Positions 21,301-59,100 of a stretch of 64,000 nucleotides of DNA are shown here, in pieces. The stretch lies in NCBI GenBank assembly GCA_963924555.1, contig OZ004581.1, positions 9,029,338-9,093,337 on the forward strand. The letters are read 5' to 3'. The position numbers and the translations under genes were made by a program. This DNA is from Crambe crambe (lineage: Eukaryota; Porifera; Demospongiae; Poecilosclerida; Crambeidae). Each line of letters begins with the position of its first letter. The first letter of the stretch is position 1. Below the pieces are notes generated by a model. The model saw only the letters and a list, made by a program, of their open reading frames with translations. It was not told the origin of the DNA and did not search any database.

Positions 21301-21684
21301 CTTCATACTTTCCATGGATGGAACATTTCTCAGCATTGAGAGCTGCTTTTAGATCTGCCGCCAATTTTTCCTGTCGGCCATCTTTCAACAAGTTGTATAA
21401 GCCTCTCCATTTCTCTGAGTAGCGTTTGCAGTGGGGCATTTGGGGAGCATTGGCCAGCCATTCTCCAATCACATCTCGTAAGCAATCAACATCTGACTCT
21501 TGCTTTGCTACGGACTTGATGCGATAAGGTGGGATGCCAACAAGCTCAGCTATCTTCTTCCAGTAGGGAGCCAAGTCATCCAGGATTCTGATTTCTCTGT
21601 GCTTGGCAGTTTCGCAGTCAAAGTACTTGATCAGTTGTAAGCTTTCAATGGTTGCATCTTCATCCCAAAGAGGACTTGTACCAA
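21301..21684 (-). CDS. Internal death-fold exon (copy A)
   Basis: 384 nt, phase 1-1, acceptor ATTACAACAG, donor GAAG|GTAAAC. Encodes LIKYFDCETAKHREIRILDD, then LAPYWKKIAELVGIPPYRIK, then WLANAPQMPHCKRYSEKW and LAADLKAAL. The pattern (W..IA..LG.....I......CL...I..WL......W..L...L) fits a death domain. It is almost identical to 47340-47723, showing recent duplication or conversion. In copy A no 5' exon with fitting phase was found directly upstream, so its use is uncertain. Confidence 0.6.
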
Positions 21685-22065
21685 CTGTTGTAATGATAAA
21701 AATACATGTTCACATTATACTGTAGTGGATTGTAATCATGACTGCATGGCTATATACCTTGTTTGCTAACTTATACTACTAAATCACATACTAACCACAT
21801 TAACAATACTAACACTGGATGGGGCCCCCACTTTCTGGCACCCCAGGTGTTAATTTTTTGAAAACAAAGGTAGCTACCCTCAGTCATCATGTTATAGCTC
21901 AAAAGTTAATTTTTTGAAAACAAAGGTAGCTACCCTCAGTCATCATGTTATAGCTCAAAAGTAGGTTAGGAGGCGATATAAATATCGTGACTGACTAGAC
22001 CTATAAAATTCATCATTCATTGCCTAATATTATTCACTCTAACACACGCTCTGACCGTGTATTAC

Positions 22066-22531: not shown

Positions 22532-22866
22532 TTACGGTATCCAATTACCTTTCCAAATCACAGTGTCTCTAATAGATTCAGCAAGTTGGTTCAATCCAAT
22601 ATCTTCCAGCACAGACACCAGAGTCTCCCAGGACACAGGTTGTCTCCCTTCCCCAAGCAGCCATTCATGAAACACTCGATAGTTGATGTCTTGTGCTTTC
22701 TTCATCAGTTCTCTCTCAAGGGCACTGATGCGCGCTCCAGTCTGGTCTTCCAGGAGGAGTGTTCCGAACTCAAGGTACTTAGTTCCAACTTCTTTAGTCA
22801 AGTTCACTTTAGAGTCTTGCAAAGGGCAGCAGATGATGTCCGTCATGGTTGGGGGACTGCAAGAAC
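22532..22866 (-). CDS. Terminal death-domain-type exon (copy A, proximal)
   Basis: Acceptor TTTAATTGCAG; 111 codons to stop, entry phase 1, which fits the exit phase of exon 24226-24280. Contains YLEFGTLLLEDQTGA, VFHEWLLGEGRQP, VSWETLVSVLEDIGL and LAESIRDTV. It occupies the position that the EWEDLG death domain (45499-45782) holds in copy B, but the sequence is different. Copy A has therefore swapped its C-terminal module. Confidence 0.55.
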
Positions 22867-23171
22867 CTGCAATTAAAGCCCCATGAAGTTTCACTCAGAT
22901 AAGGGAGTCTATAGTCCACCAGACCCACTTGCCAGTGTATACATGTACTGTAACTATGACGACTGTAGTGATAGGCATTCCTGCTTATGATTGCATCATG
23001 CATTTGCAGCACATGCACTTGAAGCTGCACTGTGTTGAAAGACATGAATTGTATTGCCAGTCAGAGGCAGTTGCCAGCTCATCTAAGGGCACTGGAAGAA
23101 TGGTTCATATTGAAGTCAGAGAAGTGTCTAATCAGACAACCTTATGATGAGATCACCTAGCTCTCTATTAT

Positions 23172-25509: not shown

Positions 25510-27501
25510 TTGTCGAATATTGAACCAAAATTTCTGGAAATCATTTAACTTTGTTTGATTCCCTTTCTGACAAATGAGGGATGGGTTGGAAGTGGTGGGA
25601 TATGATGGAAGGATCACAAAATGATCGTTTTGTGGGCAGCCTTCACATTTCAGTGCAAAATCAATATTGGTTCCAGGAAGCCACTTTTTTGATATCAGAA
25701 GATGAGTCTTGAAGTATTTCAAGAATATCACGACATGAACTTATGAAGAAGGGACAGTTGTACTCTCTTGAATTGATACGTTGTACATCAACTCTCACAC
25801 TAAACTTTTCTTCTGTAATGAAAAGTCTGTCCTGTTGCTGTCCAGGAGATCCAAACAAAAATTGGATTTGATTTAGATATATTTTTTCATTGACAGGTAA
25901 ATAACATTTCGGGTGCTTTGACATGACTGCTGCCAGTTGAGTGAAGAAGCCTGGAGGCAAGTAGTTGGTGTTGAAAACAAGATGAAAAGGAATTGCAAAT
26001 TTGATGGCAGTGCTAATTGATTGTGGATCATCAACTTTCAATAAATGAGGTAGCATGGATGGAACGAAATACTTCATACCAGGACCCTTATGCTTTTCGA
26101 TACTGATTGTAGCAATAATCAAGAAATGTTCCAACAGATCCACAATTTGTTGAGGTTGCAACTCTTTTTGAGCACTCAATACTTCCTGGTATAATGATTC
26201 TACTAATACTCCATCCTCACGCAGCAACTTCCAGAGACGGCTGTTTCTATATTCTTCTCGGCCTTCCAGTGCCAACAAACGGGCTATTTGCTTGATGAGC
26301 CATTGAGGGTCAGCAATGACACAAGACTTCAAGCTGGGGATGTCTGAGTAGTGAAAGAACACGGCAAGATCGTGATAGAATGCAAGAATGCTAGTAAGAG
26401 TATCTTCAGGGATTAAACATGCTCTGCACAATTTCTTCACTTCCTCTAAAGGAACTACTGGCTTCTTTTGAGATCTGGCATATCTCTGGAACACTTTCCT
26501 GAATAGCAACCAAGTGATTGGAGTACGAATAGCTAAGTTTTTTGTTGCAAACTTATTCACAATTGTACGAATGAGCTTAAAAGTGTTATCTTCTTCAAGC
26601 TCTCCTTTACCAGCTGTTGTATTATCGACTATTGCTCCATCCAGAACAATGTCAGAAAAAGCTTTATCTGTAAATTCTGTAGAAAGCTTTTCAAGAATCT
26701 CATCCTTCCTTTCCTTGACAGAAAAATCATCACCGTGTGAACCAACTGGTAGAATGTGGGGATATTTGGGGAATGCTTCATCTTTATTATTTTCTTTATC
26801 GAAAAAGAGCCTCTTATTCAAGAGAGTAGCATGAATGGTGGATATCCACTGCACCATCAGGTCCAGTGTGGATATATCTTCTAGATGCTCAGTGGCTCTT
26901 CCTTTCAAATACGTGAGTGACCGACACTGATCTTGGAGATCAAATCGGGCATCAAACATTAAGAGAAACAAGGTCCTCGCTGTTAGGAATGCAGGAAGAA
27001 TTTTAAGAAAGACTGGCTGGCCTCCACAATCCCACACATTCAGATAAACTTCCTCTTCAATAAATGGGTGATCAGTGGTTATAACAGAAAAAATCTCTTT
27101 CAAAATCCCCTCAATTAATGGGTCATCAAACTTGGGGACAATTTTACTAGATTGACTTTTGCCACTGCTCACATCACTTCCACTGCTTGCATCACTTTCT
27201 GTGGCAGAATTAGAATCTTTGTGCTCAAGAATAGTTTGTATCAACTGAGCCATTGCCTTGATTTCATCAGCATCAATTATTTTAGTCCAGAACTTTCCTT
27301 CCTGGCTGCAGGCCCAGTAACTCTCAGTGGGGCGGAGGGAGAACGTGTCAGCCACCTGGGTGCTGTAGGCTTCACAGGGAAGGGGCAGATTCATCAAGCC
27401 ATTGAGTAGACTGCTCTTGCCCACACCTCCAGGACCAACGATCATCACACGAGCATATGCAACCTTCGTTTCACCATGCCCCAGGGCATTCAGGTAATCC
27501 A
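25510..27501 (-). pseudogene. Roc-COR GTPase exon, copy A (frameshifted)
   Basis: Large exon after acceptor GATTTTCAG, entry phase 1. Residue numbers start at DYLNALGHGE. P-loop GPGGVGKS at about 23-30, switch-II-like WDCGGQP at 157-163 and VGSHGD (the Roc equivalent of NKxD) at 253-258 define a Roc-type GTPase. A Ser/Asp-rich insert sits at about 96-120. A COR-like region follows from about 325 (TPITWLLFRKVFQRYA, ADPQWLIKQIARLLALEGRE). Near 25687 one extra base in an A-run (AAAAAAG against AAGAAA in copy B) shifts the frame and gives a stop at 25661. The lost end (LKCEGCPQNDHF, FWFNIRQ) is still readable in another frame down to the donor at 25510. The intact relative is 48975-50980. An assembly error in the homopolymer cannot be excluded. 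Confidence 0.8.
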
Positions 27502-27553: not shown

Positions 27554-27575
27554 CTTCAGTCCTTGAGGCTCGAAA
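27554..27575 (-). CDS. 22-nt constant exon before the GTPase exon (copy A)
   Basis: Encodes FRASRTE plus one base; acceptor TTTTTCATTGAG, donor GAAG|GTAATA, phase 0 to 1. The same 22 nt with one change (first codon ATT) is at 51033-51054 in copy B. It links the microexon array (phase 0) with the GTPase exon (phase 1). Confidence 0.65.
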
Positions 27576-27649: not shown

Positions 27650-30600
27650 CACCTGAAAATATGAACACCACAACAGTGAAAGTATTATGAGATTCAGTGA
27701 GCAAACACAGGGAGAAAGCTGACTCTCAGATCATGACTCAATGTATGTGTTATGATTAACAATGCATTAATTTTGGTAGACAACATGTAAGTAACAATGC
27801 AGAGAGTGAGTCAGTTCAGAATAACTTACTTGCTGAAGGAATGAAATTAAGCATCAAAATACGACAGTGAAGGTATGGCAGGGTAAGAGAATAGAGAGCA
27901 TAATTATAAGTAACAATGCAGAGAGTGAGTAAGTTCAGAATAACTTACTCGCTGAAGGAATGAAATTAAGCATCAAAATACGACAGTGAAGGTATGGCAG
28001 GGTAAGAGAATAGACAGCATGTAAGTAACAATGCAGAGAGTGAGTACGTTCAGAATAACTTACTATCTGAAGGAATGAAATTAAGCATCAAAATACGACA
28101 GTGAAGGTACGACAGGGTAAGAGAATAGACAGCATGTAAGTAACAATGCAGAGAGTGAGTAAGTTCAGAATAACTTACTCGCTGAAGGAATGAAATTAAG
28201 CATCAAAATACGACAGTGAAGGTATGGCAGGGTAAGAGAATAGACAGCATGTAAGTAACAATGCAGAGAGTGAGTACGTTCAGAATAACTTACTATCTGA
28301 AGGAATGAAATTAAGCATCAAAATACGACAGTGAAGGTACGACAGGGTAAGAGAATAGAGAGCATATAAGTAACAATGTAGAGAGTGAGTCAGTTCAGAA
28401 TAACTTACCTTCTGAAGGAATGAAATTAAGCATCAAAATACGACAGTGAAGGTAAGACAGGGTAAGAGAATAGACAGCATGTAAGTAACAATGCAGAGAG
28501 TGAGTACGTTCAGAATAACTTACCTCCTGAAGGAATGAAATTAAGCATCAAAATATAACAGTGAAGGTACGGCAGGGTAAGAGAATAGACAGCATGTAAG
28601 TAACAATGAAGAGAGTGAGTCTGTACAGAATAACTTACTTTCTGAAGGAATGAAATTAAGCATCGAAATACGACAGTGAAGGTACAACAGGGTAAGAGAA
28701 TAAACAGCATGTAAGTAACAATACAGAGAGTGAGTACGTTCAGAATAACTTACCGACTGAAGAAATGAAATTAAGCATCGAAATACGACAGTGAAGGTAC
28801 AACAGGGTAAGAGAATAGACAGCATGTAAGTAACAATGCAGAGAGTGAGTACGTTCAGAATAACTTACATCCTGAAGGAATGAAATTAAGCATCCAAAAA
28901 CGACAGTGAAGGTACGACAGGGTAAGAGAATAGACAGCATGTAAGTAACAATGCAGAGAGTGAGTTAGTTCAGAATAACTTACCAACTGAAGGAATGAAA
29001 TTAAGCATCAAAATACGACAGTGAAGGTAAGAGAATAGACAGCATGTAAGTAATAATGCCGAGAGTGAGTACGTTCAGAATAACTTACATACTGAAGGAA
29101 TGAAATTAAGCATCAAAATACGACAGTGAAGGTAAGACAGGGTAAGAGAATAGACAGCATGTAAGTAACAATGCAGAGAGTGAGTACGTTCAGAATAACT
29201 TACCTCCTGAAGGAATGAAATTAAGCATCAAAATACAACAGTGAAGGTACGGCAGGGTAAGAGAATAGACAGCATGTAAGTAACAATGCAGAGAATGAGT
29301 CTGTACAGAATAACTTACCGGCTGAAGGAATGAAATTAAGCATCAAAATACGACAGTGAAGGTATAATAGGGTAAGAGAATAAACAGCATGTAAGTAACA
29401 ATGCAGAGAGTGAGTCAGTTCTGGATAACTTACCGGCTAAAGGAATGAAATTAAGCATCAAATATAACAGTGAAGGTAAGACAGGGTAAGAGAATAGACA
29501 GCATGTAAGTAATAATGCCGAGAGTGAGTACGTTCAGAATAACTTACTATCTGAAGGAATGAAATTAAGCATCAAAATACGACAGTGAAGGTAAGACAGG
29601 GTAAGAGAATAGAGAGCATATAAGTAACAATGCAGAGAGTGAGTACGTTCAGAATAACTTACCAACTGAAGGAATGAAATTAAGCATCAAAATACGACAG
29701 TGAAGGTAAGACAGGGTAAGAGGATAGACAGCATGTAAGTAACAATACAGAGAGTGAGTCTGTACAGAATAACTTACATTCTGAAGGAATGAAATTAAGC
29801 ATCGAAATACGACAGTGAAGGTACAACAGGGTAAGAGAATAAACAGCATGTAAGTAACAATGCAGAGAGTGAGTCAGTTCAGAATAATTCACCTCCTGAA
29901 GGAATGAAATTAAGCATCAAAATACGACAGTGAAGGTAAGACAGGGTAAGAGAATAGACAGCATGTAAGTAACAATGCAGAGAGTGAGTATGTTCAGAAT
30001 AACTTACCGACTGAAGAAATGAAATTAAGCATCAAAATATAACAGTGATGATACGACAGGGTAAGAGAATAGACAGCATGTAAGTAACAATGCAGAGAGT
30101 GAGTCAGTTCAGGATAACTTACCAGCTAAAGGAATGAAATTAAGCATCAAAATACGACAGTGAAGGTAAGACAGGGTAAGAGAATAGACAGCATGTAAGT
30201 AACAATGCAGAGAGTGAGTCAGTTCAGAATAACTTACTTGCTGAAGGAATGAAATTAAGCATCAAAATACGACAGTGAAGGTATAATAGGGTAAGAGAAT
30301 AAACAGCATGTAAGTAACAATGCAGAGAGTGAGTCAGTTCTGGATAACTTACCGGCTAAAGGAATGAAATTAAGCATCAAATATAACAGTGAAGGTAAGA
30401 CAGGGTAAGAGAATAGACAGCATGTAAGTAATAATGCCGAGAGTGAGTACGTTCAGAATAACTTACTATCTGAAGGAATGAAATTAAGCATCAAAATACG
30501 ACAGTGAAGGTAAGACAGGGTAAGAGAATAGAGAGCATATAAGTAACAATGCAGAGAGTGAGTACGTTCAGAATAACTTACCAACTGAAGGAATGAAATT

Positions 30601-33600
30601 AAGCATCAAAATACGACAGTGAAGGTAAGACAGGGTAAGAGGATAGACAGCATGTAAGTAACAATACAGAGAGTGAGTCTGTACAGAATAACTTACATTC
30701 TGAAGGAATGAAATTAAGCATCGAAATACGACAGTGAAGGTACAACAGGGTAAGAGAATAAACAGCATGTAAGTAACAATGCAGAGAGTGAGTCAGTTCA
30801 GAATAATTCACCTCCTGAAGGAATGAAATTAAGCATCAAAATACGACAGTGAAGGTAAGACAGGGTAAGAGAATAGACAGCATGTAAGTAACAATGCAGA
30901 GAGTGAGTATGTTCAGAATAACTTACCGACTGAAGAAATGAAATTAAGCATCAAAATATAACAGTGATGATACGACAGGGTAAGAGAATAGACAGCATGT
31001 AAGTAACAATGCAGAGAGTGAGTCAGTTCAGGATAACTTACCAGCTAAAGGAATGAAATTAAGCATCAAAATACGACAGTGAAGGTAAGACAGGGTAAGA
31101 GAATAGACAGCATGTAAGTAACAATGCAGAGAGTGAGTCAGTTCAGAATAACTTACTTGCTGAAGGAATGAAATTAAGCATCAAAATACGACAGTGAAGG
31201 TATGGCAGGGTAAGAGAATAGACAGCATGTAAGTAACAATGCAGAGAGTGAGTAAGTTCAGAATAACTTACTCGCTGAAGGAATGAAATTAAGCATCAAA
31301 ATACGACAGTGAAGGTATGGCAGGGTAAGAGAATAGACAGCATGTAAGTAACAATGCAGAGAGTGAGTACGTTCAGAATAACTTACTATCTGAAGGAATG
31401 AAATTAAGCATCAAAATACGACAGTGAAGGTACGACAGGGTAAGAGAATAGACAGCATGTAAGTAACAATGCAGAGAGTGAGTCAGTTCAGAATAACTTA
31501 CCTCCTGAAGGAATGAAATTAAGCATCAAAATACGACAGTGAAGGTAAGACAGGGTAAGAGAATAGACAGCATGTAAGTAACAATGCAGAGAGTGAGTCA
31601 GTTCAGAATAACTTACCTCCTGAAGGAATGAAATTAAGCATCAAAATACGACAGTGAAGGTAAGACAGGGTAAGAGAATAGACAGCATGTAAGTAACAAT
31701 GCAGAGAGTGAGTATGTTCAGAATAACTTACCGACTGAAGAAATGAAATTAAGCATCAAAATATAACAGTGATGATACGACAGGGTAAGAGAATAGACAG
31801 CATGTAAGTAACAATGCAGAGAGTGAGTCAGTTCAGGATAACTTACCAGCTAAAGGAATGAAATTAAGCATCAAAATACGACAGTGAAGGTAAGACAGGG
31901 TAAGAGAATAGACAGCATGTAAGTAACAATGCAGAGAGTGAGTACGTTCAGAATAACTTACCTCCTGAAGGAATGAAATTAAGCATCGAAATACGACAGT
32001 GAAGGTACAACAGGGTAAGAGAATAAACAGCATGTAAGTAACAATACAGAGAGTGAGTACGTTCAGAATAACTTACCGACTGAAGAAATGAAATTAAGCA
32101 TCGAAATACGACAGTGAAGGTACAACAGGGTAAGAGAATAGACGGCATGTAAGTAATAATGCCGAGAGTGAGTACATTCAGAATAACTTACCAACTGAAG
32201 GAATGAAGTTAAGCATCAAAATACGACAGTGAAAATAAGACAGGGTAAGAGAATAGACAGCATGTAAGTAACAATGCAGTGAGTGAGTCAGTTCAGAGTA
32301 ACTTACCCCCTGAAAGAATGAAATTAAGCATTATAAAACGACAGTGAAGGTACGACAGGGAAAGAGAATAGACAGCATGTAAGTAACAATGCAGAGAGTG
32401 AGTACGTTCAGAATAACTTACATCCTGAAGGAATGAAATTAAGCATCCAAAAACGACAGTGAAGGTACGACAGGGTAAGAGAATAGACAGCATGTAAGTA
32501 ACAATGCAGAGAGTGAGTTAGTTCAGAATAACTTACCAACTGAAGGAATGAAATTAAGCATCAAAATACGACAGTGAAGGTAAGAGAATAGACAGCATGT
32601 AAGTAATAATGCCGAGAGTGAGTACGTTCAGAATAACTTACATACTGAAGGAATGAAATTAAGCATCAAAATACGACAGTGAAGGTAAGACAGGGTAAGA
32701 GAATAGAGAGCATATAAGTAACAATGCAGAGAGTGAGTACGTTCAGAATAACTTACCGACTGAAGGAATGAAATTAAGCATCAAAATACGACAGTGAAGG
32801 TAAGACAGGGTAAGAGGATAGACAGCATGTAAGTAACAATACAGAGAGTGAGTCTGTATAGAATAACTTACTTTCTGAAGGAATGAAATTAAGCATCGAA
32901 ATACGACAGTGAAGGTACAACAGGGTAAGAGAATAAACAGCATGTAAGTAACAATGCAGAGAGTATGTTCAGAATAACTTACTATCTGAAGGAATGAAAT
33001 TAAGCATCAAAATATGACAGTGAAGGTAAGACAGGGTAAGAGAATAGACAGCATGTAAGTAACAATGCAGAGAGTGAGTACGTTCAGAATAACTTACCTC
33101 CTGAAGGAATGAAATTAAGCATCAAAATACAACAGTGAAGGTACAACAGGGTAAGAGAATAGACAGCATGTAAGTAACAATACAGAGAGTGAGTCTGTAC
33201 AGAATAACTTACTTTCTGAAGGAATGAAATTAAGCATCAAAATACGACAGTGAAGGTAAGACAGGGTAAGAGAATAGACAGCATGTAAGTAACAATGCAG
33301 AGAGTGAGTACGTTCAAAATAACTTACCTCCTGAAGGAATGAAATTAAGCATCAAAATACAACAGTGAAGGTACAACAGGGTAAGAGAATAGACAGCATG
33401 TAAGTAACAATACAGAGAGTGAGTCTGTACAGAATAACTTACTTTCTGAAGGAATGAAATTAAGCATCAAAATACGACAGTGAAGGTAAGACAGGGTAAG
33501 AGAATAGACAGCATGTAAGTAACAATGCAGAGAGTGAGTACGTTCAAAATAACTTACCTCCTGAAGGAATGAAATTAAGCATCAAAATACAACAGTGAAG

Positions 33601-36331
33601 GTACAACAGGGTAAGAGAATAGACAGCATGTAAGTAACAATACAGAGAGTGAGTATGTTCAGAATAACTTACTATCTGAAGGAATGAAATTAAGCATCAA
33701 AATATGACAGTGAAGGTAAGACAGGGTAAGAGAATAGAGAGCATATAAGTAACAATGCAGAGAGTGAGTCAGTTCAGAATAATTTACCTCCTGAAGGAAT
33801 GAAATTAAGCATCAAAATACGACAGTGAAGGTAAGACAGGGTAAGAGAATAGACAGCATGTAAGTAACAATGCAGAGAGTGAGTATGTTCAGAATAACTT
33901 ACCTCCTGAAGGAATGAAAGTAAGCATCAAAATACAACAGTGAAGGTACGGCAGGGTAAGAGAATAGACAGCATGTAAGTAATAATGCAGAGAGTTAGTA
34001 TGTTCAGAATAACTTACCAACTGAAGGAATGAAATTAAGCATCAAAATATGACAGTGAAGGTAAGACAGGGTAAGAGAATAGAGAGCATATAAGTAACAA
34101 TGCAGAGAGTGAGTCAGTTCAGAATAATTTACCTCCTGAAGGAATGAAATTAAGCATCAAAATACGACAGTGAAGGTAAGACAGGGTAAGAGAATAGACA
34201 GCATGTAAGTAACAATGCAGAGAGTGAGTACGTTCAAAATAACTTACCTCCTGAAGGAATGAAATTAAGCATCAAAATACAACAGTGAAGGTACAACAGG
34301 GTAAGAGAATAGACAGCATGTAAGTAACAATACAGAGAGTGAGTCTGTACAGAATAACTTACTTTCTGAAGGAATGAAATTAAGCATCGAAATACGACAG
34401 TGAAGGTACAACAGGGTAAGAGAATAAACAGCATGTAAGTAACAATGCAGAGAGTGAGTATGTTCAGAATAACTTACTATCTGAAGGAATGAAATTAAGC
34501 ATCAAAATATGACAGTGAAGGTAAGACAGGGTAAGAGAATAGAGAGCATATAAGTAACAATGCAGAGAGTGAGTCAGTTCAGAATAATTTACCTCCTGAA
34601 GGAATGAAATTAAGCATCAAAATACGACAGTGAAGGTAAGACAGGGTAAGAGAATAGACAGCATGTAAGTAACAATGCAGAGAGTGAGTATGTTCAGAAT
34701 AACTTACCTCCTGAAGGAATGAAAGTAAGCATCAAAATACAACAGTGAAGGTACGGCAGGGTAAGAGAATAGACAGCATGTAAGTAACAATACAGAGAGT
34801 GAGTCTGTACAGAATAACTTACCGGCTAAAGGAATGAAATTAAGCATCAAAATACGACAGTGAAGGTATAATAGGGTAAGAGAATAAACAGCATGTAAGT
34901 AACAATGCAGAGAGTGAGTCAGTTCTGGATAACTTACCGGCTAAAGGAATGAAATTAAGCATCAAATATAACAGTGAAGGTAAGACAGGGTAAGAGAATA
35001 GACAGCATGTAAGTAACAATGCAGAGAGTGAGTCAGTTCAGAATAACTTACCAACTGAAGGAATGAAATTAAGCATCAAATACGACAGTAAAGGTATGAC
35101 AGGGTAAGAGTATAGACAGCATGTAAGTAACAATGCAGAGAGTGAGTCAGTTCAGAATAACTTACCAACTGAAGGAATAAAATTAAGCATCGAAATACGA
35201 CAGTGAAGGTACAATAGGGTAAGAGAATAGACAGCATGTAAGTAACCATGCAGAGAGTGAGTATGTTCAGAATAACTTACCGACTGAAGAAATCATCAAA
35301 ATACGTCAGTGAAGGTATGACAGAGTAAGAGAATAGACAGCATGTAATTAACCATGCAGAGAGTGAGTACGTTCAGAATAACTTACTGACTGAAGGAATG
35401 AAATTAAAGCATCGAATACGACAGTGAAGGTACAACAGGGTAAGAGAATAGACAGCATGTAAGTAACCATGCAGAGAGTGAGTACGTTCAGAATAACTTA
35501 CTGACTGAAGAAAATACGTCAGTGAAGGTACGACAGAGTAAGAGAATAGACAACATGTAAGTAACAATGCAGAGAGTGAATCAGTTCTGAATAACTTACT
35601 TGCTGTAGGAATGAAATTAAGCATTGAAATACGACAGTGAAGGTACGACAGGATAAGAGAATAGACAGCATGTAAGTAATAATGCAGAGAGTTAGTATGT
35701 TCAGAATAACTTACCAACTGAAGGAATGAAATTAAGCATCAAAATACGATAGTAATAGTACGGCAGGGTAAGAGAACAGACAGCATGTAAGTAACAAAAT
35801 GCAGAGAGTGAGTTTATTCAGAATAACTTACCCGCTGAAAGAATAAATTAAGCATCAGTGACAGTATGACAGGGTAAGAGAATAGACAGCATGTGAGTAA
35901 CAATGTAGAGTGTGAGTTGGTTCAGAATAACTTACCCGCTGAAGGCATCAAAATACGACAGGGTAAGAGAATAGACAGCATGTAAGTAACAATGCAGAGA
36001 GTGAGTTTATTCAGAATAACTTACCAACTGAAGGAATGAAATTAAGCATCAAAATATGACAGTGAAGGTATGACAGGGTAAGAGAATAGACAGCATGTAA
36101 GTAATAGTGCTGAAAGTTGTCAAGAATAACTCACATCCTGAAGGATCTAAATATGTCAATGAAGGTATGACAGGGTAAGATAATGAGAAGTGATAAAACA
36201 ATATGTTAATGAAGTATAAGTAATGACTTACCAGGAGAAGGGGTAATAAGTTCAAACATCAAATTGAGTGTGTATGGTGTGAAAGAACATGATGCCAAAT
36301 ATAATAATGTCAGTCTTGAATGACTCACCTC
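27650..36331 (-). repeat. Hypervariable 3-nt microexon array, copy A
   Basis: About 75 tandem units of about 115 bp. On the minus strand each unit carries TGCTTAAT (branch-point-like), TTTCATTCCTTCAG (acceptor), three variable bases, GTAAGTTATTCTGAAC (donor), then spacer. The variable triplets in copy A are CAA, CGA, ATA, AAG, GAG, AAA, TCG, GAT, TTG, TAT, CCG, AAT, CTG, GGG, TCA and CGG. A diverged last unit at 27650-27652 has GTG. None is a stop. A few units have CCTTTAG or CCTACAG acceptors, or GTGAATT, GTAAATT or GTGAGTT donors, all still AG/GT. The unit near 36235 lacks an AG. The 5' edge units are most diverged. The array sits between coding exon 1 (36674-36748, phase 0) and the 22-nt exon (phase 0). 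The repeat structure is certain; splicing of the triplets as exons is inferred. Confidence 0.9.
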
Positions 36332-36673
36332 CTGAAAGAAAACATTGATACACATACTAACTAAAGGTCGTGATCATAACATAATTCAGCACTTTCTAAT
36401 CAATAGACATTCCAGACACTATCCTTATTTCCTTCCTTTATTTGGTAAAGGGTTGGCAAGTAAGAATAGGTCCCACCCGTGGGCCACATAGGCACACTGC
36501 AGTACAGCACAATCTGTACTTCAGGTGAGGAAGGAATGAGCTTCCAAGTCATTACCAGTGGTGGGTTGCATTGGTACACCCTCTATAATTGATACTCCAC
36601 AACTAAATGAGCTGGTGTCACACCCTAACCCCTAGCCCCTAGCTAGCCACCTTTTTCATGTGAATGCACTCAC

Positions 36674-36748
36674 AAAATATGGTTCAGCTCTGCTAGAAGT
36701 TGCCTTCTTCTCTGTCTCTTCATTCTCTTTATCTATTTTATCACTCAT
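36674..36748 (-). CDS. First coding exon, copy A Roc-COR gene
   Basis: ATG at 36748; 25 codons, MSDKIDKENEET...SSRAEPYF, ending TTT|GTGAGT in phase 0. It is a short charged leader without a signal peptide. Copy B has a 26-codon homologue (59434-59511). Upstream at about 36767-36774 lies TTATCAG|GTAAGA, both an acceptor and a donor, conserved in copy B. Confidence 0.65.
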
Positions 36749-37226
36749 GATGTTATTTCTTACCTGATAAAAAAATCGCACGAGGAATGATTATAGTGGA
36801 CAGTGAAGAGTGGATTCATTGCGCATGCGCATGATGAACAGAAAACAGGAGTTTGCAATTAATCAACTGAAAGTGAAAATTCGATTTAAAAGATTAACCT
36901 TTGTGAGTCCAATTAGTGATCATTTCATACTGACAAGGCTGTTATCAAAGTAATACAAGAGGCCTGGAAGCTAGACCTGTCCACATAATTATAACTAGCT
37001 AGCTTAATAAATGTACTAACTAAATGAACCAGTTGGCTATGTTCACAGTTAGCGCCATTGATTTTTAGTTCTATGGAAATTTATCTCTATAGCATCTATA
37101 TACTTCACCTGTTCCTTGACAAACCCACACCAGCAGGTAGGCCTTGTTATAAGCTAGCTAGTGATACCTAAACATCAAGTGCTTCTATAACAGTTTGGCA
37201 GCGCAGGCCGGGATGGCTTCACCTAG

Positions 37227-47158: not shown

Positions 47159-50100
47159 AAAACAAAGAAAAAATGATGAACCTTGTGGAGTGTGTGCTTC
47201 TTTTGAAATAGGAAGGGTGGATGCTGAGGTGAATTGCTGTAATACTTCTGAATCTGTATTTAAAAGGTGATACCATAAACTACACATCTATACATGATTC
47301 AAAACACCATTGCAATTAAGTACAAAAATCTAAGTTTACCTTCATACTTTCCATGGATGGAACATTTCTCAGCATTGAGAGCTGCTTTGAGATCTGCCGC
47401 CAATTCTTCCTGTCGGCCATCTTTCAACAAGTTGTATAAGCCTCTCCATTTCTCTGAGTAGCGTTTGCAGTGGGGCATTTGGGGAGCATTGGCCAGCCAT
47501 TCTCCAATCACATCTCGTAAGCAATCAACATCTGACCCTTGCTTCGCTATGGACTTGATGCGATAAGGTGGGATGCCAACAAGCTCAGCTATCTTCTTCC
47601 AGTAGGGAGCCAAGTCATCCAGGATTCTGATTTCTCTGTGCTTGGCAGTTTCGCAGTCAAAGTACTTGATCAGTTGTAAGCTTTCAATGGTTGCATCTTC
47701 ATCCCAAAGAGGACTTGTACCAACTGTTGTAATGATAAAAACACATGTTCACATTATACTGTAGTGGATTATAATCATGACTGCATGGCTATAATTATAT
47801 ATGGATGGGGCCCCCACTTTCTGGCACCCCAGGTATATAAATTTAGCATCCCGTTAATTTTTTGAAAACAAACACAATGGTAGCTACCCTCAGTCATCAT
47901 GTTATAGCTCAAAAGTGGAGTGGATACTGTAGGTACAGGAAACTGTTAAGATAAAAATTACAAGCTGTAAGTTATGATTATTTGAAAGATGATTAACCAA
48001 ATTCCAATTTCTGTTCCAAGCAGAATTGATATACTGTCTACATGCATAAATAAACATTGATCAATTTATAAAATAAAGGAATTAGTTAATGGGCATATCA
48101 TGCAAAAATTAGTCCTCACTAATCAGTAATAAAGTTCTTTTGAGATTACTACAATAATTATTGTGATGGAAGAAGACTTCTATATTATAGCTAGTTACTT
48201 GAATGTAATATTTATTATACCTTTCTCAATTTCCTTGCCCTTTTTGCTCAGTTGTAGCTACATCATCATGAATCAGTTATTAATACAGTTACATGCAGTA
48301 AACTGTGCACTTACGGGAGTACTAAGTGATTGCTGATGAGGTGGACCAGTTGAAGATGCTAACTGGGTCAGTCCAAGACCTGAATTCTGAAGTGAAGGTT
48401 GACGCTCTAAAGGTAATGAGGAATGATCTTGATTAAGTATCCATCTAGCTAAGCTACACACTTCACCTTTCTCCAATTCTTTCTTTAACTGATCAATCTC
48501 CTTGTTCTTTTCATGTATTTCTCTGTCCTTTAAACTCAGTTGCTGCTCATAGTGTTCCTTGTGAGTCTGTTCAAACTTGTGATAAAACAATCTGGAAAAA
48601 AAAAAAAAAAAAAAAAAAAAACCAAGCAAAACCCATGCATGGGTATAGTACAAGTTAGTTAATACAGTCATCACAAGTACTTTTTCTGCATGTCTTGAAT
48701 GCCTATAGTGCTCAGATGTTGGAGGAGGTGAGGTCTGGATACCATCTCAATCTCTTCCTGCCACAGGTCTAGCAGAATCTTGGCATTATTGTTGATGTAC
48801 TCCAAGTGTTCTGACATCTCCAAGACTTCTGCCAGTTCTTTCACCTTCTCACACTTCTGAACCTCAATGGCAATAACCTCAAGTTCAGAAGAAGAGACAA
48901 TAGCAATCTCCTGAAAAAACAACAACAAAAAAAAAACATTAAATAACACCCACTTATCGTAGTTAGCTACTCACCTGTCGAATACTCAACCAGAAGTTTT
49001 GGTCAATATTTAATTTTATCCGAACACTTTTTTCACAAACTAGTGTAGGATTAGAAATGGTGGCATCCTCTGGAAGGATGATGAAATGATCTCTCTGTGG
49101 ACAACCTTCACACTTCAATGCAAAATTGATGCCAATCCCTGGTAGCCATTTCTTGATTTCTGTGAATGACTGTTGAATGATTTCAAGTATGGCATGACAT
49201 GAACTTATGAAGGTGGGGCATTTATATTTCCTTGAGTCAATACGTTGTACGTCAATTCTCACACTAAACTTTTCCTCTGTAATGAAAAGTCTGTCCAGTT
49301 GCTGTCCAGGAGATCCAAACAAGAATTGGATTTGGTTTTGATACATTTTCTTATCAACTGGTAGATGACATTTAGGATACTTTGACATGACTGCTGCCAG
49401 TTGAGTGAAGAAGCCTGGAGGTAAGTAGTTGGTGCTGAAAACAAGATGCAATGGAATTGCAGAGTTGATGGCAGTGCTAGTTGAGTGTGGATCATCAACT
49501 TTCGGTAAATGAGGTAACATGGATGGAACAAAATACTTCCTACCAGGACCTTTATGCTTTTCAGTACTGATTTTAGCAATAATCAAAAAATGCTCCAATA
49601 GATTTATAATCTGTTGAGGTTCCAACTTTTTTTGAGCTCTCAATACTTTTTGGTATAATGATTCTACCAGTATTCCATCCTTACGCAGCAATTTCCAGAG
49701 ACGACTGTTTCTATATTCTTCTCGGCCTTCCAGTGCCAACAAACGGGCTATTTGCTTGATGAGCCATTGAGGGTCAGCAATGACACAAGACTTCAAGCTG
49801 GGGATGTCAGAGTAGTGAAAGAATACGGCAAGATCGTGATAGAATGCAAGAATGCTAGTAAGAGTATCTTCAGGGATTAGACATGCTCTACACAATTCCT
49901 TCACTTCCTCTAAAGGAACTACTGGCTTCTTTTGAGATCTGGCATATCTCTGGAACACTTTCCTGAACAGCAACCAAGTGATTGGAGTACGAATAGCTAA
50001 ATCTTCAGTTGCAAAGTCACTCACAATCGTACGAATGAACTTAAAAGTGTCATCTTCAAGCTCTTCCTTACCAGCTGTTGTGTTATCGACTATTGCTCCA

Positions 50101-53100
50101 TCCAGAACAATGTCAGAAAAGGCTTTACCTGTTAATTCTGAAGAAAGCTTTTCAAGAATCTCATGTTTTCTTTCCTTGACAGAAACATTGTCACCATGTG
50201 AACCAACAGGCAGAACGAGAGGATACTTGGGGACTTCTTCATCGTCATCGCTTTCTTTATCAATAATGAGCCTCTTATTCAAGAGAGTAGCATGAATGGT
50301 GGATATCCACTGCACCATCAGGTCCAGTGTGGATATATCTTCTAGATGCGCAGTGGCTCTTCCTTTAAAATAGGTAAGACACTGATACCGATCATGGAGA
50401 TCACACCTGGCATCGAACATTAAGAGAAACAATGTCCTCGCGGTTAGAAATGCAGGAAGAATTTTAAGAAAGACTGGCTGGCCTCCACAATCCCACACAT
50501 GCAGATAAACTTCCTCTTTGATAAATGGGTCACCAGTGGTTATAACAGAAAGAATCTCTTTCAAAATCCCCTCAATTAATGGGTGGTCAAACTTGGGGGC
50601 AGTTTTACTAGGTTGAATCTCACAACTGCTCACATCACTTTCACTGCTTGTATCACTTCCACTGTTCGCATCACTTCCTGTGGCAGAATTGGAATCTTTG
50701 TAGTCAAGAATAGTTTGTATCAACTGAGCAAGTCCTTTGATTTCATCAGCATCAGTTATTTTAGTCCAGAATTTTCCTTCCTGGCTGCAGGCCCAGTAAC
50801 TCTCAGTGGGGCGGAGGGAGAATGTGTCAGCAACCTGGGTGCTGTAGGCTTCACAGGGAAGGGGCAGATTCATCAAGCCATTGAGTAGACTGCTCTTGCC
50901 CACACCTCCAGGACCAACGATCATCACACGAGCATATGCAACCTTCGTTTCACCATGCCCCAGGGCATTCAGGTAATCCACTGAAAATCAAAAGTACAAA
51001 ATAATTAATATCTATCAAAATAAAAATATTACCTTCAGTCCTTGAGGCTCGAATCTAATAAAAAAGAATTCAACATGGAAATTAAACATGGAAACGAAGT
51101 TGATTCACAAGTGAATTATGCACAAAAGACATACACTCACCACCTGAAAATATGAACACCACAACAGTGAAAGTATTGTACAGAGAGAAAGCTGACTCTC
51201 AGGTCATGACTCAATGTATATGTTATTATTAACAACGCATTAATTTTGGTACACAGCATGTAAGTAACAATGCAGAGAGTGAGTCAGTTCAGAATAACTT
51301 ACTCGCTGAAGGAATGAAATTAATACGACGACAGCATGAGAGAATAGACAGCATGTAAGGGTAAGAGAATAGACAGCATGTAAGTAACCATGCAGAAAGA
51401 GAGTGAAGGAATCATCAAAATACGACAGTGAAGGTACGACAGGGTAAGAGAATAGACAGCATGTAAGTAACAATGCAGAGAGTGAGTCAGTTCAGAATAA
51501 CTTACATCCTGAAGGAATGAAATTAAGCATCAAAATACGACGTCAGGGTAAGAGAATAGACAGCATGTAAGTAACAATGCAGAGAGTGAGTCTGTACAGA
51601 ATAACTTACTCGCTGAATGAATGAAATTAAGCATCAAAATACGACAATGAAGGTACGACAGGGTAAGAGAATAGACAGCATGTAAGTAACAATGTAGAGA
51701 GTGAGTACGTTCAGAATAACTTACCCCCTAAAGGAATGAAATTAAGCATCAAAATACGACAGTGAAGGTAAGACAGGGTAAGAGAATAGACAGCATGTAA
51801 GTAACAATGTAGAGAGTGAGTACGTTCAGAATAACTTACCCCCTGTAGGAATGAAATTAAGCATCAAAATACGACAGTGAAGGTAAGACAGGGTAAGAGA
51901 ATAGACAGCATGTAAGTAACAATGCAGAGAGTGAGTACGTTCAGAATAACTTACCTTCTGAAGGAATAAAATTAAGCATCAAAATACGACGACAGGGCAA
52001 GAGAATAGACAGCATGTAAGTAACAATGCAGAGAGTGAGTCTGTTCAGAATAACTTACCTCCTGAAGGAATGAAATTAAGCAACAAAATATGACAGTGAA
52101 GGTACGACAGGGTAAGAGAATAGACAGCATGTAAGTAACCATGCAGAGAGTGAGTCAGTTCATAATAACTTACTCGCTGAAGGAATGAAATTAAGCACGA
52201 AATACGACAGTGAAGGTACAACAGGGTAAGAGAATAGACAGCATGTAAGTAACCATGCAGAGAGTGAGTCTGTTCAGAATAACTTACCAACTGAAGGAAT
52301 GAAATTTAGCATCAAAATACAACAGTGAAGGTACGACAGGGTAAGAGAACAGACAGCATGTAAGTAACAATGCAGAGAGTGAGTACGTTCAGAATAACTT
52401 ACCAACTGAAGGAATGAAATTTAGCATCAAAATACAACAGTGAAGGTACGACAGGGTAAGAGAATAGACAGCATGTAAGTAACAATGTACAGAGTGAGTC
52501 AGTTCAGAATAACTTACCTCCTGAAGGAATGAAATTAAGCATCAAAATACGACAGTGAAGGTACGGCAGGATAAGAGAATAGACAGCATGTAAGTAACAA
52601 TTCAGAGAGCGAGTCAGTTCAGAATAACTTACTCGCTGAAGGAATGAAATTAAGCATCAAAATACGACGACAGGGTAAGAGAATAGACAGCATGTAAGTA
52701 ACAATGCAGAGAGTGAGTACGTTCAGAATAACTTACCAACTGAAGGAATGAAATTTAGCATCAAAATACAACAGTGAAGGTACGACAGGGTAAGAGAATA
52801 GACAGCATGTAAGTAACAATGTACAGAGTGAGTCAGTTCAGAATAACTTACCTCCTGAAGGAATGAAATTAAGCATCAAAATACGACAGTGAAGGTACGG
52901 CAGGGTAAGAGAATAGACAGCATGTAAGTAATAATGCAGAGAGTGAGTCAGTTCAGAATAACTTACTCGCTGAAGGAATGAAATTAAGCATCAAAATACG
53001 ACAGTGAAGGTAAGACAGGGTAAGAGAATAGACAGCATGTAAGTAACAATGCAGAGAGTGAGTACGTTCAGAATAACTTACAAACTGAAGGAATGAAATT

Positions 53101-56100
53101 AAGCATCAAAATACGACAGTGAAGGTACGGCAGGGTAAGAGAATAGACAGCATATAAGTAACAATGCAGAGAGTGAGTACGTTCAGAATAACTTACCTCC
53201 TGAAGGAATGAAATTAAGCATCAAAATACGACAGTGAAGGTACGGCAGGGTAAGAGAATAGACAGCATGTAAGTAACAATGCAGAGAGTGAGTACGTTCA
53301 GAATAACTTACGTCCTGAAGGAATGAAATTAAGCATCAAAATACGACGACAGAGTAAGAGAATAGACAGCATGTAAGCAACAATGCAGAGAGTGAGTACG
53401 TTAAGAATAACTTACCAACTGAAGGAATGAAGTTAAGCATCAAAGTACGAGAGTGAAGGTACGACAGGGTAAGAGAATAGACAGCATGTAAGTAACAATG
53501 CAGAGAGTGAGTCAGTTCAGAATAACTTACTATCTGAAGGAATGAAATTAAGCATCAAAATACAACAGTGAAGGTAAGACAGGGTAAGAGAATAGACAGC
53601 ATGTAAGTAACAATGCAGAGAGTGAGTACGTTCAGAATAACTTACCGACTGAAGGAATGAAATTAAGCATCAAAATACGACAGTGAAGGTAAGACAGGGT
53701 AAGAGAATAGACAGAATGTAAGTAACAATGCAGAGAGTGAGAACGTTCAGAATAACTTACCCGCTGAAGGAATGAAATTAAGCGTCAAAATACAACAGTG
53801 AAGGTAAGACAGGGTAAGAGAATAGACAGCATGTAAGTAACAATGCAGAGAGTGAGTACGTTCAGAATAACTTACATCCTGAAGGAATGAAATTAAGCAT
53901 CAAAATATGACAGTGAAGGTAAGACAGAGTAAGAGAATAGACAGCATGTAAGTAACAATGCAGAGAGTGAGTACGTTCAGAATAACTTACATCCTGAAGG
54001 AATGAAATTAAGCATCAAAATACGACAGTGAAGGTAAGACAGGGTAAGAGAATAGACAGCATGTAAGTAACAATGCAGAGAGTGAGTCAGTTCAGAATAA
54101 CTTACCGACTGAAGGAATGAAATTAAGCATCAAAATACGACAGTGAAGGTACGGCAGGATAAGAGAATAGACAGCATGTAAGTAACAATGAAGAGAGTGA
54201 GTACGTTCAGAATAACTTACATCCTGAAGGAATGAAATTAAGCATCAAAATACGATAGTGAAGGTACGACAGGGTAAGAGAATAGACAGCATGTAAGTAA
54301 CAATGCAGAGAGTGAGTCAGTTCAGAATAACTTACTGGCTGAAGGAATGGAATTAAGCATCAAAAGATGACAGTGAAGATACAACAGGGTAAGAAAATAG
54401 ACAGCATGTAAGTAACCATGCAGAGAGTGAATAACTTACCAACTGAAGGAGTGAAATTAAGCACCAAAATACGACAGTGAAGTTATGACAGGATAAGAGA
54501 ATAGACAGCATGTAAGTAACAATGCAGAGAGTGAGTATGTTTAGGATAACTTACATCCTGAAAGAATGAAATTAAGCATCAAAATATGACAGTGAAGGTA
54601 CGACAGGGTAAGAGAATAGACAGCATGTAAGTAACAATGCAGAGAGTGAGTCAGTTCAGAATAACTTACTGGCTGAAGGAATGAAATTAAGCATCAAAAT
54701 ACGACAATGAAGGTACGACAGGGTAAGAAAATAGACAGCATGTAAGTAACAATGCAGAGAGTGAATAACTTACCAACTGAAGGAGTGAAATTAAGCACCA
54801 AAATACGACAGTGAAGTTATGACAGGATAAGAGAATAGACAGCATGTAAGTAACAATGCAGAGAGTGAGTATGTTTAGGATAACTTACATCCTGAAAGAA
54901 TGAAATTAAGCATCAAAATATGACAGTGAAGGTACGACAGGGTAAGAGAATAGACAGCATGTAAGTAACAATGCAGAGAGTGAGTCAGTTCAGAATAACT
55001 TACTGGCTGAAGGAATAACTTACCTCCTGAAGGAATGAAATTAGGCATCAAAATATGACAATGAAGGTACGACAGGGTAAGAGAATAGACAGCATGTAAG
55101 TAACAATGCAGAGAGTGAGTACATTCAGAATAACTTACAAACTGAAGGAATCGCCAAAATACGATAGTGAAGGTACGACAGGGTAAGAGAATAGACAGCA
55201 TGTAAGTAACAATGCAGAGAGTGAGTCAGTTCAGAATAACTTACTGGCTGAAGGAATGAAATTAAGCATCAAAATACGACAATGAAGGTACGACAGGGTA
55301 AGAAAATAGACAGCATGTAAGTAACAATGCAGAGAGTGAATAACTTACCAACTGAAGGAGTGAAATTAAGCACCAAAATACGACAGTGAAGTTATGACAG
55401 GATAAGAGAATAGACAGCATGTAAGTAACAATGCAGAGAGTGAGTATGTTTAGGATAACTTACATCCTGAAAGAATGAAATTAAGCATCAAAATATGACA
55501 GTGAAGGTACGACAGGGTAAGAGAATAGATAGCATGTAAGTAACAATGCAGAGAGTGAGTCAGTTCAGAATAACTTACTGGCTGAAGGAATAACTTACCT
55601 CCTGAAGGAATGAAATTAGGCATCAAAATATGACAATGAAGGTACGACAGGGTAAGAGAATAGACAGCATGTAAGTAACAATGCAGAGAGTGAGTACATT
55701 CAGAATAACTTACCGACTGAAGGAATGAAATTAAGTATCAAAAGACGACAGTGAAGGTATGGCAAGGTAAGAGAATAGACAGCATGTAAGTAACAATGCA
55801 AAGAGTGAGTCAGTTCAGAATAACTTACTGGCTGAAGGAATAACTTACCTCCTGAAGGAATGAAATTAGGCATCAAAATATGACAACGAAGGTACGACAG
55901 GGTAAGAGAATAGACAGCATGTAAGTAACATTGCAGAGAGTGGATCAGTTCAGAATAACTTACAGGCTGAAAGAATGAAATCAAGCATCAAAATATGACA
56001 GTGAAGGTAAAAGAAGGTAAGCGAATAGACAGCATGTAAGTAACAATGCAGAGAGTGAGTACGTTCAGAATAACTTACATCCTGAAGGAATGAAATTAAG

Positions 56101-59100
56101 TATCAAAATACGACAGTGAAGGTACAACAGGGTAAGAGAATAGACAGCATGTAAGTAACAATGTAAAGAGTGAGTCAGTTCAGAATAACTTACAGGCTGA
56201 AGGAATGAAATTAAGCATCAAAAGACGACAGTGAAGGTATGGCATGATAAGAGAATAGACAGCATGTAAGTAACCATGCAGAGAAAGAGTACGTTCAGAA
56301 TAACTTACCAACTGAAGGAATGAAATTAAGCATCAAAATACGACAGTGATGGTACAACAGGGTAAGAGAATAGACAGCATGTAACAAAGTCAGTTCAGAA
56401 TAACTTACCTCCTGAAGGAATGAAATTAGGCATCAAAACATGACAATGAAGGTACGACAGGGTAAGAGAATAGACAGCATGTAAGTAACATTGCAGAGAG
56501 TGGATCAGTTCAGAAGGTAAAAGAAGGTAAGCGAATAGACAGCATGTAAGTAACAATGCAGAGAATGATTCAATTCGAAATAACTTACCTCCTGAAGGAA
56601 TGAAATTAGGCATCAAAATATGACAATGAAGGTACGACAGGGTAAGAGAATAGACAGCATGTAAGTAACATTGCAGAGAGTGGATCAGTTCAGAATAACT
56701 TACAGGCTGAAAGAATGAAATCAAGCATCAAAATAATATGACAGTGAAGGTAAAAGAAGGTAAGCGAATAGACAGCATGTAAGTAACAATGCAGAGAATG
56801 ATTCAATTCGAAATAACTTACCCACTGAAGGAATGAAATTAAGCATCAAAATACGACAGTGAAGGTACAACAGGGTAAGAGAATAGACAGCATGTAAGTA
56901 ACCATGCAGAGAGTGAGTACGTTCAGAATAACTTACAAACTGAAGAAATCATCAAAATACGTCAGTGAAGGTACAACAGAGTAAGAGAATAGACAGCATG
57001 TAAGTAACAATGTAAAGAGTGAGTCAGTTCAGAATAACTTACTCGCTGAAAGAATGAAATTAAAGCATCGAATACAACAGTGAAGGTACGACAGGATAAG
57101 AGAATAAACAGCATGTAAGTAACAATGCAGAGAGTGAGTACGTTCAGAATAACTTACCGACTGAAGGAATGAAATTAAAGCATCGAATACGACAGTGAAG
57201 GTACAACAGGATAAGAGAATAGACAGCATGTAAGTAACAATGCAGAGAATGATTCAATTCGAAATAACTTACCCACTGAAGGAATGAAATTAAGCATCAA
57301 AATACGACAGTGAAGGTACGACAGGGTAAGAGAATAGACAGCATGTAAGTAACAATGCAGAGAGTGAGTTAGTAAAGAATGACTTACCGGCTGAAGGAGT
57401 GAAATTAAGCACCAAAATACGACAGTGAAGTTATGACAGGGTAAGATGTAAGTAACAATGCAGAGAGTGAGTATGTTTAGGATAACTTACATCCTGAAAG
57501 AATGAAATTAAGCATCAAAATATGACAGTGAAGGTACGACAGGGTAAGAGAATAGACAGCATGTAAGTAACAATGCAGAGAGTGAGTACATTCAGAATAA
57601 CTTACCTCCTGAAGGAATGAAATTAAGCATCAAAATACGACAGTGAAGGTACGACAGGGTAAGAGAATAGACAGCATGTAAGTAACAATGCAGAGAGCGA
57701 GTACATTCAGAATAACTTACCCGCTGAAGGAATTAAATTAAGTATCAAAAGACGACAGTGAAGGTATGGCAGGGTAAGAGAATAGACAGCATGTAAGTAA
57801 CGATGCAGAGAGTGAATCAGTTCTGAATGACTTACTTGCTGTAGGAATGAAATTAAGCATCAAAAAATACGACAGTGAAGGTACAACAGGGTAAGAGAAT
57901 AGACAGCATGTAAGTAACCATGCAGAGAGTGAGTACGTTCAGAATAACTTACAAACTGAAGAAATCATCACAATACGTCAGTGAAGGTACAACAGAGTAA
58001 GAGAATAGACAGCATGTAAGTAACAATGCAGAGAATGATTCAATTCGAAATAACTTACCCACTGAAGGAATGAAATTAAGCATCAAAATACGACAGTGAA
58101 GGTACAACAGGGTAAGAGAATAGACAGCATGTAAGTAACAATGTAAAGAGTGAGTCAGTTCAGAATAACTTACTGGCTGAAGGAATGGAATTAAGCATCA
58201 AAAGATAACAATGAAGATACAACAGGGTAAGAAAATAGACAGCATGTAAGTAACCATGCAGAGAGTGAGTACATTCAGAATAACTTACCCGCTGAAGGAA
58301 TGAAATTAAGCATCAAAATACGACAGTGAAGGTACAACAGAGTAAGAGAAAAGATAACATGTAAGTAACAATGTAAAGAGTGAGTCAGTTCAGAATAACT
58401 TAAGGAATGAAATTAAGCATCAAAATACGACAGTGAAGGTACGACAGGGTAAGAGAATAGACAGCATGTAAGTAATAATGCAGAGAGTGAGTCAGTTCAG
58501 AATAACTCACCTCCTGAAGAAGCATCGAAATACGACGACAGGGTAAGAGAATAGACAGCATGTAAGTAACAATGCAGAGAATGAGTACGTTCAGAATAAC
58601 TTACCTTCTGAAGGAATGAAATTAAGCATCAAAATACGACAGTGAAGGTACGACAGGGTAAGAGAATAGACAGCATGTAAGTAACAATGCAGAGAGCGAG
58701 TACATTCAGAATAACTTACCCGCTGAAGGAATTAAATTAAGTATCAAAAGACGACAGTGAAGGTATGGCAGGGTAAGAGAATAGACAGCATGTAAGTAAC
58801 AATGCAGAGAGTGAATCAGTTCTGAATGACTTACTTGCTGTAGGAATGAAATTAAGCATCAAAATACGACAGTGAAGGTACAACAGGGTAAGAGAATAGA
58901 CAGCATGTAAGTAATAGTGCTGAAAGTTGTCAAGAATAACTCACATCCTGAAGGATCTAAATATGTCAATGAAGGTATGACAGGGTAAGATAATGAGAAG
59001 GGATAAAACAATATGTTTATAAGTAATGACTTACCAGGAGAAGGGGTAATAAGTTCCAACATCAAATTGAGTGTGTATGGTGTGAAAGAACATGATGCCA

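Follow-up and report, generated by a model that had tools for sequence, protein, structure and literature searches.

The stretch considered here, referred to as the window, comprises 64,000 nucleotides of the genome of the sponge Crambe crambe (assembly GCA_963924555.1, contig OZ004581.1, positions 9,029,338 to 9,093,337; coordinates below count from its first letter). It harbours on the minus strand two copies, A and B, of a Roc-COR gene, each with its own array of 115-bp units that sits between the first coding exon and an exon of 22 nt. Nearly every unit displays three diverse bases lodged between a splice acceptor and a splice donor, in a frame in which each triplet would read as one codon. 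This observation is real and unusual. Judged from the sequence, the triplets are quite probably genuine exons of a single codon each, and the chances are about even that they are spliced in series, with skipping, into the stretch of protein before the Roc domain.

Splice-site anatomy and coding potential of the units

Tandem Repeats Finder places array A at 27777-36118 and array B at approximately 51290-58994. On the minus strand of array A nearly every unit conforms to TGATGCTTAATTTCATTCCTTCAG-NNN-GTAAGTTATTCTGAAC, and nearly every triplet is embedded in the same succession of signals: a branch-point-like TGCTTAAT, a pyrimidine tract and AG on one side and GTAAGT on the other. Exact matches to YTNCAGNNNGTRAGT number 133 in the window, against 0.14 expected from shuffled sequence. 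An earlier note on this DNA had reported about 75 potential 3-nt microexons in copy A; the count is 76, made up of a GAG, 74 triplets in the array and a GTG. Copy B contributes 71 candidates, 69 in the array and two beyond its ends (51141-59134). One more match to the motif in copy A, GAA at 36433-36435, is false and is excluded from the total of 76. Examples of triplet runs are GATTTGCGG in copy A and GATCAACGG in copy B.

A count of units that is independent of the splice motif yielded 143 profile hits, none of which lies outside the two arrays in the 64-kb window searched; 141 span the splice site and two are truncated. In 140 of the 141 spanning units YAG-NNN-GTRART is intact, with exactly three bases between the sites, and the unit anatomy described in the earlier note is confirmed. 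The sole remaining unit (58380-58484) has lost acceptor, triplet and donor together by a clean deletion, and no profile hit has lost a single site by point change. Introns of 112 nt account for 59 of the 73 measured in array A. Over both arrays 37 of 141 depart from this length, including three of 17 nt and three of 177–219 nt, and these fall in all three length classes modulo 3; the triplet stays at 3 nt in 140. Array B contains three doublets of the form CAG-GAG-GTAAGTTATTCCTTCAG-CCA-GTAAGT (55829-55851, 55579-55601 and 55004-55026), in which 17 nt separate the paired triplets. This leaves no room for an intron between them, and the two members of a doublet could not both be used by separate introns.

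The reading frame of the flanking exons is favourable to codon-sized insertions. Exon 1 ends in ...GAACCATATTTT, in phase 0, and the 22-nt exon reads CGAGCCTCAAGGACTGAAG. As the Roc exon starts at codon position 2, the 22-nt exon, with its seven codons plus one base, starts in phase 0 as well. Since both flanking exons are in phase 0, each triplet corresponds to one whole codon and any number of triplets, even none, keeps the frame. In copy A a 52-nt intron separates the 22-nt exon from the Roc exon, indicating that short introns are normal in this gene. The host is a Roco protein, with PF08477 (Roc) followed by PF16095 (COR-A), both above the Pfam cut-off in the two copies. The placement of potential 3-nt exons between coding exons of a Roc-COR gene, as the note had it, holds with respect to phase, stops and domain content.

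No stop codon is present among 143 triplets, when 15.2 would be expected under independence of positions and units. CGA occurs nine times and CAA six times, and TGA, the other product of CpG decay of CGA, never. The base preceding the donor is G in 80 triplets, A in 38, T in 24 and C in one, whereas C occupies the other two triplet positions 40 and 29 times; over the 21 distinct types, the probability of one or fewer with C at the last base is 0.019. The order G, A, T, C before the donor is that known for 5' splice sites. Each array contains 16 triplet types, 11 of them common to both, and GAG alone makes up 27 of the 143. The array triplets cover 14 amino acids, of which E, L, P, R, D and S are the commonest.

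Diversity and history of the triplets

Diversity along the unit was assessed for 143 motif-chosen triplets (74 from array A, 69 from array B) against a background of 104 non-CpG intron columns. CpG is depleted in the window (observed/expected 0.33) and both TpG and CpA are overrepresented, a pattern like that of methylated genomes. Per-site diversity amounts to 0.736, 0.716 and 0.592 at the three triplet positions, against an intron mean of 0.070 and median of 0.058. The comparison of triplet and spacer variability that the earlier note had set out in advance as a means of refutation therefore does not refute its proposal. The contrast is maintained in array A alone (0.757/0.688/0.540 versus 0.053) and in array B alone (0.700/0.739/0.637 versus 0.087). 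The most diverse window of three columns coincides exactly with the triplet between the splice sites (0.681), the best non-overlapping window reaching 0.477 at positions +17/+18 from the donor. In 101 units of equal length, 20 distinct 3-mers are found at the triplet and no more than 8 in any non-overlapping window. The opposite strand offers an internal control: ACAG-NNN-GTAAGT, without a pyrimidine tract, occurs 124 times on the plus strand of the array units, and its triplet is CAT in 123. The invariance of this look-alike implies that the arrangement of the motif does not by itself diversify a triplet.

Diverse is not the same as fast-changing. Among pairs of units with three or fewer differences across both flanking introns (∼224 nt), the triplet is the same in 32 of 34, which are not independent pairs, and the other two differ by one base. 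A block of eight units is repeated with no difference in 895 intron bases. As such recent block copies keep their triplets, there is no mutation hotspot at present: the triplet variation is older diversity among similar introns. The codon called hypervariable in the note is diverse, with its 20 distinct 3-mers, but a triplet that hypermutates as a present-day process is rejected, given that triplets are kept where both flanking introns match. Triplet difference per base is ∼0.02 at three or fewer flank differences, ∼0.5 from four upwards and reaches a plateau near 0.65. The difference remains smaller in nine intron control windows, several of which also rise over the same range, a CpG-rich one climbing from 0.24 to 0.43.

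Estimates of relative rate have to be read with care. In nine disjoint duplicated runs the apparent rate of change was 25 times higher in triplets than in introns (20/93 versus 30/3450 bases). These runs, however, had been selected for similar introns, and many of the triplet changes fall at their ends, where they could stem from a crossover that left no visible trace. In 36 disjoint pairs with eight or fewer flank differences, 22 of 108 triplet bases differ, as do 107 of 8020 intron bases. Otherwise-identical pairs differ at the triplet in 12 cases, and the corresponding number is 12 to 26 in five of 108 intron windows; the triplet nevertheless has the most mixed groups, five of 18, against at most three elsewhere. 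Differences at all three bases are confined to the triplet, with five pairs there and none in the 108 intron windows, and these five, set in an identical flank of 112 nt, may be crossovers too. Association between intron sites declines from 0.25 within 10 nt to 0.05–0.13 beyond 20 nt, a decay that suggests much exchange between units and to which recurrent CpG change may add. Taken whole, the triplet nevertheless retains an association with certain intron sites, reaching 0.67, and so is not independent of its background. Compared with neutral samples, triplet frequencies are slightly more even (P 0.10 for A, 0.03 for B, 0.04 jointly).

The note had argued that a neutral minisatellite should not confine its variation to the triplet. 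The tenfold excess of diversity at three adjacent sites is indeed hard to obtain by neutral turnover and, on balance, fits selection for different codons. That argument is qualified by the five of 108 intron windows that differ as often as the triplet, or oftener, in identical-flank pairs.

Serial inclusion and its alternatives

If the triplets are exons, each array could be viewed as a chain of short introns, mostly of 112 nt, in a gene spliced by intron definition. The spliceosome would remove these introns stepwise, each joining of donor to acceptor adding one codon and bringing a fresh donor directly after the added triplet. Many or most triplets would be added in genomic order and skips would be harmless to the frame. 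In the product, the Roc GTPase domain would be separated from an N-terminus of 25–26 residues by as many as 76 residues in copy A and some 70 in copy B. This is the position at which sensor repeats are found in related Roco proteins. The arrays may have grown by tandem and block duplication, with selection for different residues keeping the codons diverse while the introns stayed alike. The anatomy, the phase, the intact sites and the diversity profile are read directly from the DNA; splicing, pattern of inclusion, selection and role of the protein are proposed on that basis. A 3-nt exon is not definable across itself, but the short introns of this gene and the precedent of Arabidopsis APC11, whose single-nucleotide exon is described in the passages drawn on as too small for exon definition and yet efficiently spliced (PMC4674806), lead us to infer stepwise splicing by intron definition. 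APC11 differs in having one such exon only, which is constitutive, and in being a plant gene.

A number of observations tell against serial inclusion. Acceptor and donor complexes cannot share a 3-nt exon at once, which makes the inclusion of 76 mechanically demanding; as the two sites of one unit would not be occupied together, skipping is likely. Stop avoidance is weak when only distinct triplet types are considered (P 0.19), the units being related. The residue order of the joined triplets reveals no helical periodicity beyond that of shuffles (P 0.13 for A, 0.21 for B), the best match of the array part of the joined peptide in the PDB, searched with copy A only, has an E value of 0.23, and Pfam matches of this part are below the cut-off in both copies. 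The longest run of triplets in common order between A and B is three, no longer than in shuffles. Protein-like residue order, considered as proof of serial inclusion, is not significant and was set aside. A GTAAGT that lies in the second intron of each copy lacks an AG three bases upstream (36231 and 59034, outside the profile hits), and these lone donors imply that decayed units exist. Finally, variation is highest at the triplet but, contrary to the earlier claim, not confined to it. The intronic dinucleotide at donor positions +17/+18 is nearly as variable (0.673/0.554), with +17 above the third triplet base, a feature for which serial inclusion does not account; it lies in the context GAAC-NN-ACTCAC, is mainly GT, TG, AT or AG (for example in units at 31386-31500), and one of its two columns is marked as a CpG site. 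Two more variable spacer pairs, at columns −45/−44 and −31/−30, are marked CpG, and at column −44 the commonest minor base is T (38 units), which is not a CpG transition.

The arrangement proposed in the earlier note is a diversity cassette, in which one or a few one-codon exons would be chosen per transcript, so that one or a few positions ahead of Roc would vary from protein to protein. The anatomy fits such a choice as well as it fits serial inclusion, the joined peptides are without an order signal, the triplet frequencies are somewhat more even than neutral, and the published 3-bp exons of Drosophila homothorax and human RPS24 are alternative ones, as reported in the passages drawn on (PMC7392893, PMC11162997). 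Against it stands the redundancy of the set: one position can take no more than 20 residues, and array A deploys 16 triplet types over 74 units, with GAG recurring at the frequency given above. Nor was stable RNA structure beyond that of shuffles apparent in four single units and one five-unit stretch (z 0.5 to 1.6; pairing over 575 nt or less), and the idea that RNA structure steers exon choice is unsupported in these pieces. A choice of this kind is considered rather unlikely, and ordered inclusion of many or all triplets would fit the sequence equally well or better. By eye, the donor GUAAGU could pair with ACUUAC about 30 nt downstream, and donor variants occur without a matching change.

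Could the triplets be unused altogether? An ancestral 3-nt exon with its intron may have been amplified into an ordinary intronic minisatellite that is removed as one long intron. The arrays display clear tandem-array behaviour, including the eight-unit block, decayed edge units and deletions; skipping every triplet stays in frame, and in the most recent copies triplets change no faster than introns. Such an origin leaves unexplained the tenfold diversity at three bases between intact splice sites, the zero stops, the rarity of C before the donor and the invariant plus-strand look-alike, and it is likewise considered rather unlikely. Far less credible is the insertion of near-identical, introner-like elements into an old continuous coding stretch, in which case the triplets would be old codons and the introns young. 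It accounts for similar introns around unrelated triplets and for the jump in triplet difference from ∼0.02 to ∼0.5 per base at four or more flank differences. This jump is not unique to the triplet, as some intron windows rise too. The scenario requires that an element inserted at each codon, and each time in phase 0, whereas profile hits are absent from the window outside the arrays (0/143) and block duplications are plainly visible.

Serial inclusion may be set beside several known systems. Mutually exclusive clusters of the Dscam1 type are composed of tandem-duplicated, sequence-diversified exons, far longer than those proposed here, and paired RNA elements direct the choice among them. 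The arrays share duplication and diversification with these clusters, but RNA structure was not found in the pieces folded. Zero-nucleotide recursive splice sites, in which an acceptor adjoins a donor inside a long intron, are defined by AG joined to GT without an exon (cited in PMC4674806); the arrays diverge from them, with three diverse bases between the sites in 140 of 141 units. Single 3-bp exons have been described as micro-Ex8 of Drosophila homothorax and in human RPS24, where the 3-bp exon is located ahead of a 22-bp exon; the passages drawn on report one such exon per gene and no array (PMC7392893, PMC11162997).

The closest kind of gene is represented by the micro-exon genes (MEGs) of schistosomes and tapeworms. 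In the passages drawn on, these contain multiple consecutive tiny exons divisible by three, skips of which keep the frame and vary the protein by single residues (PMC7653826), with exons of 3–81 bp in Schistosoma mansoni (PMC10526429). One rule given for the class stipulates exons below 70 nt and divisible by three, in runs of at least four and making up half or more of the exons of a gene that has no fewer than seven (PMC7653826); 76 and 71 candidates in a row would fit it if the triplets are exons. Unlike in MEGs, the array exons would all be of exactly 3 nt, separated by near-identical tandem introns of ∼112 nt and numbering 71–76 per gene, and they are known here from sequence alone. The secreted nature of the S. 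mansoni products is not shared: exon 1, MSDKIDKENEETEKKATSSRAEPYF, is charged and by eye lacks a hydrophobic signal, and the host is a Roc-COR gene without an evident signal peptide. Judged from the papers listed in searches of open-licence literature for arrays or single-codon exons, none reports an array of single-codon exons, a scope exclusive of subscription papers and most preprints. The exact unit pattern returned four single matches in a genome-contig collection, all in bacterial metagenome-assembled genomes and by estimate about what chance would give for 18 fixed bases, and one single match in viral contigs, among which a search with the Roc protein retrieved no relative.

Host genes and implications

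The features of the two genes are collected in the table. Copies A and B share the first two triplets (GAG and GAT) and the last one (GTG), and the intron pieces flanking the arrays are 92–98% identical at ungapped positions, values that are approximate as segment boundaries may be off by one or a few bases. Over 611 codons of the Roc-COR exon dN is 0.072 and dS 0.234 (dN/dS ∼0.31), and on this basis both genes look functional and under purifying selection. Residues 252–415 encoded by the copy A Roc-COR exon match LRRK2 chains in the PDB weakly but significantly (E ∼1e-5 to 1e-4). A Death domain was detected by Pfam in three of ten downstream frames searched, above the cut-off at 45502-45813 and below it at 19366-19728 and 22535-22894; it may belong to the same protein as Roc-COR.

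Features of the two Roc-COR gene copies, in positions of the window
Feature	Position	Strand	Remarks
Copy A first coding exon	36674..36748	-	MSDKIDKENEETEKKATSSRAEPYF; 25 codons, ends in phase 0, donor GTGAGTG from 36673; conserved in copy B
Copy A first candidate one-codon exon, GAG	36329..36331	-	Outside the tandem array; context tttctttcag/GAG/gtgagt; triplet and context same in copy B
Array A	27777..36137	-	115-bp units; 74 candidate one-codon exons, first GAT 36135-36137, last CAA 27830-27832
Copy A last candidate one-codon exon, GTG	27650..27652	-	Outside the tandem array; context attttcag/GTG/gtgagt; same in copy B
Copy A 22-nt exon	27554..27575	-	TTTCGAGCCTCAAGGACTGAAG; starts in phase 0, ends in phase 1; 21 of 22 bases equal to copy B
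Copy A Roc-COR exon	25661..27501	-	Open frame to 25661; P-loop GPGGVGKS near start; Pfam Roc and COR-A above cut-off
Copy B first coding exon	59434..59511	-	MSDKKKGEENEETEKKATSSRAEPYF
Copy B first candidate one-codon exon, GAG	59132..59134	-	Triplet and context same as in copy A
Array B	51303..58947	-	69 candidate one-codon exons, first GAT 58945-58947, last CGA 51303-51305; three doublets included
Copy B last candidate one-codon exon, GTG	51141..51143	-	Same as in copy A
Copy B 22-nt exon	51033..51054	-	ATTCGAGCCTCAAGGACTGAAG; 21 of 22 bases equal to copy A
Copy B Roc-COR exon	48963..50980	-	Open frame to 48963; Pfam Roc and COR-A above cut-off

A short distance ahead of the start codon, each copy exhibits a site resembling a zero-length exon (36763-36764 in A, atcag/gtaagaa; 59537-59538 in B, gtcag/gtaagaa); this T-rich acceptor directly followed by GTAAGAA may be such an exon, or it may only mark where the first coding exon begins. 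Further frames recur in both halves of the window: a Slu7-like frame (42419-42946, above the Pfam cut-off, and 17870-18097, by eye) and a frame of 149 amino acids without a Pfam family (21263-21709 and 47302-47748). Frames common to both halves suggest that the segmental duplication extends beyond the two Roc-COR genes. A frame for an eIF3 subunit is located at 44096-44431, and a long inverted repeat with similar arms, or foldback element, was seen by eye at 61440-61700, upstream of copy B. On the minus strand, at 1366-1851 and 4629-5354, there are a retrotransposon gag frame above the cut-off and a weak DUF6589 match below it.

One-codon exons are known one at a time; a row of about 75, present in each of two paralogous genes, would to our knowledge be the most extreme exon fragmentation on record. 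A bolder proposal, which is possible but doubtful, is that the arrays act as a splicing-based peptide generator: stochastic or regulated ordered subsets of ∼75 one-codon exons would furnish an enormous set of peptides ahead of a GTPase core, probably with a death domain, the codon set being kept diverse by selection, perhaps for self/non-self sensing. If the triplets are exons, they would test the spliceosome many times over on an acceptor and a donor only three bases apart. They would also allow a peptide that is long, or combinatorially variable, to be encoded in exons that are easily overlooked by gene finders and read aligners. With a host of the Roco class, such arrays could bear on receptor or sensor variation in an animal without adaptive immunity.

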